From Bacteroidota bacterium (GTDB lineage: Bacteria > Bacteroidota > Bacteroidia > B-17B0 > Aurantibacillaceae): a stretch of 64,000 bases of DNA. A model generated the notes under the pieces. The model ran no database searches. It was not told the origin of the DNA and saw nothing but the letters and a program-made list of their open reading frames with translations. A program made the translations under genes and the position numbers. Below, piece by piece: positions 56,749-59,273 of the stretch. Location of the stretch: the NCBI GenBank assembly GCA_021155905.1, contig JAJNBG010000014.1, positions 1-64,000 on the forward strand, given 5' to 3'. Numbering within the stretch: the first letter of the stretch is position 1; each line of letters starts with the position of its first letter.

Positions 56749-58167
56749 ATGCGAAGCAACGATTATAAAATCTATTCTGCCGGTCATTTTATTTCTACTT
56801 CTAAAATACTTGAAGTCAAAAATCCTTTCGATGGATCTATCGTTGCAATTACTTATTTGGCAGATGCCCCTATTTTAAACGGTGCAATTGAAAAAGCTTT
56901 ATCTCTGAAAGAAGAATTAAAGGACCTGTCATCATTAAAGAAATACAGCATATTAAAACAGATTTCAGAAACAATCACTGCTAACAGGGATCATTTAGCG
57001 AACGTATTATGCCTGGAGTCAGGCAAGCCTTTAAAATATGCTTCAGCGGAGATCGATCGTTCCGCCCAAACCTTTCTGATTGCCGCGGAAGAAAGTAAAC
57101 GGATTCCGAAAGAATATTTATCACTGGATTGGACGTCAACGGGTGAAAAAAAAGAAGGCATTGTCAATTATTTCCCGATTGGATTGGTTGCAGGCATAGC
57201 ACCATTTAACTTTCCCATGAATCTCGCGGTTCACAAAATTGCACCGGCCATTGCCAGTGGCTGTCCCATTATTTTAAAGCCTTCGAGTACCACTCCGCTT
57301 TCCTGTTTAGAGTTAGCTAAAATCATTGACCAAACCGAATTACCTAAAGGAGCTGTTTCCATTTTGCCAATGACCCGTGAAACAGGAAATTTACTGGTAA
57401 CCGATGAACGTTTCAACTTATTAAGTTTTACAGGCTCGCCGGATGTGGGATGGAAAATGAAACGTGAGTGCGGAAAGAAAAAAGTAGTTTTAGAATTGGG
57501 AGGCAACGCTGCCACCATCGTATCGTCAAGTGCAGATTTAAAAGATGCATTACCAAAATGCCTGATGGGCGCTTTTACATATAGCGGCCAAATTTGTATT
57601 CATGCTCAGCGTTTTATCGTACATAACTCTGTTTATCAAAAATTCACAGAGGAGTTAAAAACATCTGCGCTTCAATTGAAAAAAGGTGATCCCTTAAATA
57701 CCTCAACAGATGTTTCGAATATGATCGATGAAGCAAATGCAAAACGTATTGAAGAATGGGTGAATGAAGCCATACAACAAGGCGCACATTTATTGTGTGG
57801 TGGAAAAAGAACCGGAAGTTATTATGAACCAACGATACTGGCAAACTGTAATCATACTATGAAAGTATACGCTGAAGAAGTTTTCGGCCCGGTGATCTGC
57901 ATTAATTCATTCGAAACAATAGAAGAAGCTATCGAACAGGCAAACGATACCCGATTCGGTTTACAAAGTGGCGTTTTCACCAATGATATCTCTGAATTGG
58001 ATATATGTTTTAAGCATTTAGAAGTTGGTGGAGTTATTCATAATCATGTGCCAACTTTACGTTTCGATCACATGCCATACGGAGGCATTAAAGACAGTGG
58101 CCTTGGAAGAGAAGGTGTAAAATACGCCATGCTGGATATGCTCGAACCAAAAGTTCTGGTGAAGTAA
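56749..58167 (+). CDS. Aldehyde dehydrogenase family protein
   Basis: 472 aa; GIAPFNFPMNLAVHKIAPAIASG, LELGGNAATIV, GQICIHAQR catalytic Cys, EEVFGPVICI. Confidence 0.95.
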   Translation: MRSNDYKIYSAGHFISTSKILEVKNPFDGSIVAITYLADAPILNGAIEKALSLKEELKDLSSLKKYSILKQISETITANRDHLANVLCLESGKPLKYASAEIDRSAQTFLIAAEESKRIPKEYLSLDWTSTGEKKEGIVNYFPIGLVAGIAPFNFPMNLAVHKIAPAIASGCPIILKPSSTTPLSCLELAKIIDQTELPKGAVSILPMTRETGNLLVTDERFNLLSFTGSPDVGWKMKRECGKKKVVLELGGNAATIVSSSADLKDALPKCLMGAFTYSGQICIHAQRFIVHNSVYQKFTEELKTSALQLKKGDPLNTSTDVSNMIDEANAKRIEEWVNEAIQQGAHLLCGGKRTGSYYEPTILANCNHTMKVYAEEVFGPVICINSFETIEEAIEQANDTRFGLQSGVFTNDISELDICFKHLEVGGVIHNHVPTLRFDHMPYGGIKDSGLGREGVKYAMLDMLEPKVLVK

Positions 58168-58177
58168 TTAGTATTTA

Positions 58178-58204
58178 TCCCCCTTTGGAGGGGGCAGGGG
58201 GAGG
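58178..58204. repeat. Left 27-bp inverted repeat flanking the DUF559 gene
   Basis: TCCCCCTTTGGAGGGGGCAGGGGGAGG; reverse complement of the right copy matches 25/27. Confidence 0.85.
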
Positions 58205-58231
58205 AAGAATGTAAACATAAATGAAATCTTT

Positions 58232-58669
58232 ATGTCATCCGAACAAAATAATTTCTATAATAAACGATTAAAATCGTTCGCTCACGAAAAGCGCTACGAA
58301 TTGACAAAAGCGGAAGCTTGCCTGTGGAAGTTTGTCCTTTCTTCTAAAAAAACTGGTTATACCTTCAACAGACAAAGACCAGTTCTCAATTTTATCGCAG
58401 ATTTTATGTGTAAAGAATTAAAGCTAATTATTGAGATTGATGGTTATTCTCATTTTCTAGATGAAGTCATTACTAAGGATAATAAAAAACAAAAAGCTTT
58501 GGAAGAACTTGGATTCGCTGTTATTCGATTTACAGATTCGGAAGTTTTAAATCAAATTGAAAGAGTGCGGATTGCTATCATGAATTGCGTCGAGCAGATT
58601 GAAAATAAAAATATCCTCCCCCTACCCCCTCCAGAGGGGGACATTCAAAACCATCAGAAAAAATCTTAA
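58232..58669 (+). CDS. DUF559 domain (Vsr-like / restriction endonuclease-like fold) protein
   Basis: 145 aa; LTKAEACLWKFVLSSKKTGYTFNRQRPVLNFIADFMCKELKLIIEIDGYSH, ALEELGFAVIRFTDSEVL. Confidence 0.92.
   Translation: MSSEQNNFYNKRLKSFAHEKRYELTKAEACLWKFVLSSKKTGYTFNRQRPVLNFIADFMCKELKLIIEIDGYSHFLDEVITKDNKKQKALEELGFAVIRFTDSEVLNQIERVRIAIMNCVEQIENKNILPLPPPEGDIQNHQKKS
58615..58641. repeat. Right 27-bp inverted repeat, inside the 3' end of the DUF559 coding sequence
   Basis: CCTCCCCCTACCCCCTCCAGAGGGGGA, encodes the ...ILPLPPPEGD tail. Confidence 0.85.
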
Positions 58670-58673
58670 AGTT

Positions 58674-59273
58674 CTACGGCTTAGGAGTCGTAGTTTTAGC
58701 AGTATCCTTTTTGTCTTTCTTATTTCCTACACCATATCCAACTCCGGAACCAACAGCGCCACCAATAATTCCACCTAAAACCGCTCCCGCGCCGCGATTA
58801 TTTTTATTTAAAATAGCTCCGGCTGCGGCACCTGCTGCGGCACCTGTGGCAGCACCAATAACAGCGCCTTTGGTTTTATTGCTCATCGTTTTCTTTTCCG
58901 TTACCGTAGATGTAGTTGTGGTAGTCGTCTCCGTAGGTGTAGACTGCGTTACCACAGGCGCACTCGAAGTTTGTGTAGTTGTCGAGGTCACCGGTTGAGT
59001 TGGAGATTGCGGCTTAGTACCACCCTTAGTTGGCTTAACCGGCGCGACGGACGTAGCCGCTTCCTGTACAGTCATCACAGTCATGGTGTTTGTTTCTATA
59101 CCGGCGTCAGTTGAATTTGTTAAACGGTTTACAGAATCAACGGCGCGGTTTACAGCATTAACAGCGTTAACAGAATCCATAAAATGTTGCTTTTCTAATT
59201 CCGCTTCTTTTTTAGAATCGTTGCATGCAACAAATGCTAAAGACAATGCTAATATTGAGATTGTAGTTTTCAT
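58674..59273 (-). CDS. Lipoprotein with Thr/Pro-rich linker and glycine-zipper domain
   Basis: 199 aa; lipobox FVAC, GAVIGAATGAAAGAAAGAILNKNNRGAGAVLGGIIGGAVGSGVGYGVG. Confidence 0.8.
   Translation of the reverse strand: MKTTISILALSLAFVACNDSKKEAELEKQHFMDSVNAVNAVNRAVDSVNRLTNSTDAGIETNTMTVMTVQEAATSVAPVKPTKGGTKPQSPTQPVTSTTTQTSSAPVVTQSTPTETTTTTTSTVTEKKTMSNKTKGAVIGAATGAAAGAAAGAILNKNNRGAGAVLGGIIGGAVGSGVGYGVGNKKDKKDTAKTTTPKP

Follow-up and report, generated by a model that had tools for sequence, protein, structure and literature searches.

The window, a 64,000-nucleotide stretch of Bacteroidota DNA, carries a small gene of the DUF559 family enclosed by a pair of inverted palindromic repeats. The question raised by this locus is whether one nuclease gene and two short repeats can together form an element that moves. 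An earlier note on this DNA described a unit of roughly 460 bp and considered a mobile or homing-type nature. Comparison with related genomes lends good support to this idea; the element is not confined to one lone locus and is instead a member of a widespread class. The window unit is probably old but still intact, a copy of a minimal selfish mobile element composed of a DUF559 gene and two inverted cognate repeats.

The nuclease gene and its flanking repeats

The two repeats lie, as first described, at 58178-58204 and 58615-58641, and match in inverted orientation at 25 of 27 positions. In 100 dinucleotide shuffles of the window, there were zero matches at up to three mismatches. The left repeat (+ strand) is of the T-type, a family found beside many of the 79 DUF559 loci considered below. 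It consists of the hairpin CCCCCT-TTGG-AGGGGG (58179-58194, +) and a tail, GGGGGAGG (58197-58204, +), which is the mirror of the hairpin arm GGAGGGGG (58187-58194). The right repeat, also T-type, lies on the − strand and overlaps the 3′ end of the coding sequence, with the same tail, GGGGGAGG, read on the − strand at 58615-58622. The whole unit more likely runs from TA at 58176 to CA at 58643 (TRTCCCCC...GGGGGAYA, 468 bp, + strand), because the homology borders of four related units (L048, L054, L060 and L073) define shared 5′-TRTCCCCC...GGGGGACA-3′ termini. Upstream is an aldehyde dehydrogenase-like (ALDH) gene (56749-58167, +), at whose 3′ end congeners were compared for the insertion. Downstream is a gene for a YMGG-like glycine-zipper protein (58674-59273, −), which in the closest relatives, where the unit is lacking, comes immediately after ALDH.

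The single ORF between the repeats does encode a DUF559 protein, of 145 amino acids (58232-58669, +). It matches the PF04480 profile with 97 bits against a curated cut-off of 20.6 (E 7.6e-28), and its AlphaFold2 model (pLDDT 85.7) was matched by Foldseek to NGO0050 (3hrl), the homing endonuclease I-Bth0305I (3r3p) and Vsr (1vsr). Profile and predicted fold thus place the protein among the DUF559 / PD-(D/E)XK Vsr-like nucleases, with a Vsr/EDxHD-homing-endonuclease-like fold. E28, D57, E68, D70, H74 and D83 are invariant across 28 sequences and are candidate catalytic residues. A Caulobacter DUF559 protein, a distant member of the family, acts on DNA in living cells and is responsible for an SOS response there (PMC12907096).

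The right repeat is indeed translated as ILPLPPPEGD, but the emphasis once laid on a repeat built into the C-terminus was misplaced. Homologues translate the repeat in three different reading frames, so the C-terminal peptide appears incidental, and a role as a functional tail was rejected. Assignment to a defence system was rejected as well, as PADLOC gave weak matches only, HEase among them. A phage or plasmid origin was likewise set aside: W-type relatives were absent from the phage, plasmid and IMG/VR collections, which held only distant homologues, at most 41% identical.

Partnership of DUF559 genes and palindromes across genomes

Comparison between genomes reveals a partnership of nuclease and repeat that is specific to the nuclease clade. 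A scan of GTDB contigs provided 79 loci encoding homologues, in which the two flanks of each gene were searched without bias for inverted repeats of any kind, the other ORFs of the same loci serving as controls. Homologues elsewhere do have flanking repeats: at a score of at least 12, these were found at 37 of the 79 DUF559 loci and at 7 of 454 control ORFs (MWU P 1.7e-15). Hairpins like those of the window were 34-fold denser within 400 bp of DUF559 genes (164 in 93 kb) than elsewhere in the loci (32 in 619 kb). They occur as two subtypes, the T-type, CCCCCT-YTGG-AGGGGG nn GGGGGAGG, and the G-type, CCCCCGCTGGCGGGGG nn(n) GGGGGTGG. Often the subtypes stand at opposite ends of one unit or take turns along an array, an example being Pedobacter polaris (L099); such arrays are comparable to the Y and Z REPs in BIMEs. 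At two loci (L078 and L061), palindrome-bounded segments around DUF559 are amplified in tandem.

The association also holds at the level of whole genomes. The exact hairpin is present in 24 of 295 Bacteroidia genomes, 19 of which encode an A1-type DUF559, compared with 93 of the 271 genomes without the hairpin (Fisher 2.8e-5). A very close DUF559 is encoded by 13 genomes, and the hairpin occurs in 10 of these against 14 of the other 282 (4e-10). Some genomes speak against the pairing: one (G290) carries repeats but no W-type nuclease, and two (G286 and G287) have the nuclease without full T-type pairs.

Other DUF559 clades are accompanied by other palindromes, for example CCCCTCTTGAGAGGGG nn AGGGGTGTGT or CCCTTCTCCYTTGGAGAAGGG nn GGGGATGAGGC. 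On a tree of 136 DUF559 domains, the palindrome types W, B and C require two changes among the labelled rows, which is the minimum. When the unlabelled rows (“none”) are treated as a fourth state, 18 changes are needed compared with 59.6 in shuffled labels, and 0 of 200 shuffles was as low. The agreement of palindrome type with DUF559 clade is strongly supported without being conclusive, since the tree is based on few columns and the labels derive from our own patterns.

The window's own genome (G000, 4.06 Mb) offers a second view of this pairing. The earlier note proposed a search for the 27-mer, and at up to three mismatches it occurs only twice, both times in the window unit. The window's repeat type is therefore confined there to this unit, and no solo copies of it were found in the genome. 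Another DUF559-linked palindrome type, ATTCCTCCTTTGAAGGAGGTGTCCGCAGGACGGAGGATGT, is nonetheless dispersed in 15 places on C30, C28, C1, C21, C22 and C27 (L154, L316-L330). They take the form of two units (C30:23766/24200 and 25607/26056), of solos and of doublets that lack the gene. This type carries a small second hairpin whose stems vary between copies (GTCC/GGAC, GGCT/AGCC, GGCC/GGCC, GCCC/GGGC and GCCT/AGGC) yet stay paired, which argues for selection on the folded strand.

It could be argued that the palindromes belong to an independent REP-like family, mobilised by RAYT/Y1 proteins or by replication slippage, with DUF559 as a captured hitch-hiker. The movement of REPs elsewhere is attributed to Y1 RAYTs (PMC3733652), Y1 proteins were present in 8 of 9 genomes tested, and the genome with repeats but no W-type nuclease fits such independence. 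Yet no match to the Y1/RAYT transposase profile (PF01797) was found in the window's genome, which is 94% complete, despite the 15 dispersed copies of one type; RAYTs are thus not needed for dispersal there. The tracking of DUF559 clade by palindrome type, at the minimum number of changes, and the far more frequent bordering of DUF559 genes than of other genes also speak against a hitch-hiker, which we regard as an unlikely account.

Spread of related units and history of the window copy

Homology bounded by the repeats extends between phyla. Units from Planctomycetota (L048 and L073) and from deltaproteobacteria (L054 and L060) are 80-91% identical in DNA, and the homology common to all of them runs from T[AG]TCCCCC of the left repeat to GGGGGACA of the right repeat. 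The two planctomycete units alone share approximately 45 bp more on the right. Because the inter-phylum pairs come from MAG contigs of 4-8 kb, they may reflect misbinning, although L098 and L110 sit on longer planctomycete contigs of 94 and 46 kb. W-type units were found at many unrelated loci with unrelated flanks. A pair from Fulvivirga (L090 and L091, 93% over 553 bp) was rejected as a case of repeat-bounded movement, as its homology continues approximately 56 bp past the left repeat; it shows a duplication.

Presence and absence at conserved sites can be followed in leucyl-tRNA synthetase (LeuRS), where units of another DUF559 clade stand in frame at two sites (sites A and B, L201-L230), before FTTRPDTIFG and before TMPGWAGSSWYF. 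The sites are filled in some genomes of a family and empty in others, with filled and empty alleles of 86.6% DNA identity (L209 and L215) and 85% (L205 and L203). Both sites are filled in L220. Gene-less palindrome relics occur among the alleles, and the inserts are neither introns nor inteins. The LeuRS of L010 and L220 also contains a short in-frame insert, NVTLSEVEGS, apparently of a different palindromic repeat family. Other hosts of DUF559 units are, by sequence reading, HutU and a restriction enzyme. At L025, a unit lies in frame inside a urocanate hydratase-like protein.

Dispersed solos are seen in an Ignavibacteria genome (G266), which has a W nuclease and 24 repeats: one W unit and approximately 22 further copies. 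One solo repeat lies in frame in ispG (gcpE; L123, 604-2541). In two congeners, nuclease and repeats are both missing and IspG carries no insert. In five proteins of the same genome (L128, L129, L134, L136 and L138), solo repeats share one position, just upstream of the V-x-LKVFD segment in sorting-like C-terminal domains.

The history of the window copy was traced at the ALDH locus, where the distribution of the unit proved patchy. Among 14 genomes of the genus with ALDH, its own included, the unit stands at the ALDH 3′ end only in G000 and G069. In G071 and G078, ALDH is directly followed by the YMGG-like gene without the unit. Judged by the neighbouring AKR gene, these two are the closest congeners (95.5% and 94% identity to G000) and lack the unit, while the more distant G069 (89.7%) keeps it at the same spot. 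Two hairpin relics without a nuclease gene were found 3′ of ALDH in G068 (L150), in the intergenic position that the window's unit occupies.

Both parts of the unit have been conserved. Between G000 and G069, the repeats are identical at 53 of 54 positions, compared with 297 of 410 in the stretch between them and 66 of 127 third codon positions. At the third-position rate, the chance of such repeat conservation is 2e-14; part of it could stem from one arm converting the other. The numbers of identical first, second and third codon positions (101, 118 and 66 of 127) indicate purifying selection on the DUF559 protein. G069 has the unit at this very position, and L034, which shares the AKR side, probably does too, so the unit has not recently moved. 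The window copy is thus long-standing and maintained, not a fresh insertion. Neither a target-site duplication nor a base-exact empty site was found; the intergenic flanks have diverged and the closest empty sites are too distant.

Repeat architecture, known systems and a proposed mode of spread

In each window repeat, the hairpin is followed by a 3′ tail whose sequence exactly mirrors the 3′ arm. In nearly every repeat type, the tail is likewise a mirror rather than an inverted copy of this arm. For the 67 distinct arms without mirror symmetry of their own, a set that includes palindromes counted in the wrong orientation, for which no match is expected, there were 24 full mirror matches, 5 direct matches and 0.69 in shuffles. 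When the register was fixed by G positions only, 215 hairpins fitted in the mirror sense and 60 in the direct sense. In counts over related sequences, the tail has A or T under an arm A in 293 of 315 cells and T under an arm C in 61 of 69; by subtype, the tail base is T in 48 of 48 G-type and A in 22 of 23 T-type cases. A third strand in an antiparallel purine-motif triplex forms the triads G.GC, A.AT, T.AT and T.CG. The tail bases are what such a strand would require, and the mirror tail would fit an intramolecular triplex of this kind. The hairpin itself (DNA fold −6.4 kcal/mol) is no more stable than shuffles, as is expected for any C5/G5-rich sequence. An alternative hairpin of 5′ arm and tail forms 7 bp in the T-type but fails in the G-type, and was rejected as not general.

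A role as functional RNA or transcription elements, such as a terminator, an autoregulatory hairpin or a small RNA, was weighed against mobile-element ends and is quite improbable. Both repeats match the Rfam family whalefall-1 (RF01762) at full length (58175-58206, +; 58613-58644, −), although at 23.2 and 21.9 bits these matches are below the 37-bit gathering threshold. At both ends of its model, whalefall-1 has a hairpin, a UUGG-like loop and then a AGGGUGAGGA tail, as the window repeats do, and its 24-nt middle resembles DUF559-linked types with a second hairpin. The right repeat also lies between convergent genes, and a terminator scan gave one weak match (58638-58618, − strand) where 0.9 is expected by chance. 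Against such a role, copies are found within coding sequences, those of IspG and LeuRS for example, gene-less solos and doublets exist, most repeats have no T-run, and the inverted arrangement of the arms allows only one of them to function in any one transcript sense. Whalefall-1 is annotated as ncRNA, but this candidate may itself be a DNA repeat of the DUF559 class.

The least probable alternative, and a very doubtful one, is a strict freestanding homing endonuclease gene whose product cuts an empty allele so that homologous repair inserts a copy, with the repeats of secondary importance: I-Bth0305I is among the closest folds, PADLOC gave its weak HEase match and related units recur patchily at two LeuRS sites, but W-type units occupy many unrelated loci rather than a single conserved target, solo repeats also disperse on their own, and the concordance of clade and palindrome would stay unexplained. 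The EDxHD/Vsr-like homing endonucleases share the fold and the insertion into conserved genes seen in the window's relatives, where LeuRS has empty alleles, while the window copy is intergenic. They differ from DUF559 units, which have no intron or intein, carry terminal palindromes and have only a putative target site.

The best reading, by analogy, is a REP/RAYT-like selfish unit with an unrelated Vsr-like nuclease. As in REP/RAYT systems, REPtrons and REPINs, a single-copy gene of a nuclease family is bounded by inverted short palindromes of a type that co-segregates with the enzyme clade. Solos, inverted doublets and alternating arrays occur in both, and the repeats are often non-coding and sometimes within genes. 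Dispersed solos and doublets were found in the Ignavibacteria genome and for the second type of the window's genome, not for the window's own type. The REP/RAYT enzyme is an HUH Y1 transposase (PF01797), whereas the window class has a PD-(D/E)XK/Vsr-like DUF559 protein. A GTAG or CGTC tag at the palindrome foot is absent in both window repeats, which instead have a mirror-image purine tail, and the DUF559 class has whole units in frame inside essential proteins. Formal membership fails, while REP/RAYT stands as a working analogy.

Other systems share single features. Rickettsia palindromic elements are palindromes tolerated in frame in protein genes; their sequences differ from the DUF559 repeats, and we know of no linked nuclease gene. 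MITEs and insertion sequences likewise have a short unit bounded by inverted repeats and gene-less derivatives, but the window unit has no transposase and no target-site duplication was detected. The CGTC-tagged REPs are palindromic families, some in Bacteroidetes, apparently without a dedicated transposase (PMC3733652); the window class differs in its evident dedicated partner gene and its sequence tag. No paper linking DUF559 with palindromes was found in open-access PMC, although a description elsewhere is possible. The DUF559 units seem to form a family of minimal mobile DNA that is as yet undescribed, and the mirror-tail rule of their repeats is new in this analysis.

For such a REP/RAYT-like unit, we infer recognition and nicking of the repeats by DUF559, followed by copying. 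Once single-stranded or extruded, the repeat would fold into a hairpin with the mirror tail laid along it. The nuclease would recognise this folded repeat and nick at its border, after which repair or template switching could copy a whole unit, a single repeat or a doublet to a new place. The triplex form is put forward less firmly than these three steps. The fullest version of the proposal, a new class of mobile DNA in which DUF559 reads a hairpin with an antiparallel third strand and which spreads as units, doublets and solos, even into LeuRS, with whalefall-1 perhaps one of its repeats, is tentative, a possibility more than an expectation.

If true, this would give a role to the large domain family DUF559, a dedicated nuclease to palindromic repeats without an assigned mobiliser, and an independent non-HUH counterpart to REP/RAYT. 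In-frame nuclease inserts in LeuRS, with neither intron nor intein, also pose the puzzle of how an enzyme that the cell cannot do without accommodates them. The mirror-tail rule amounts to a simple code in the sequence, open to testing, and predicts both nuclease-repeat pairing and an unusual DNA structure in living cells.
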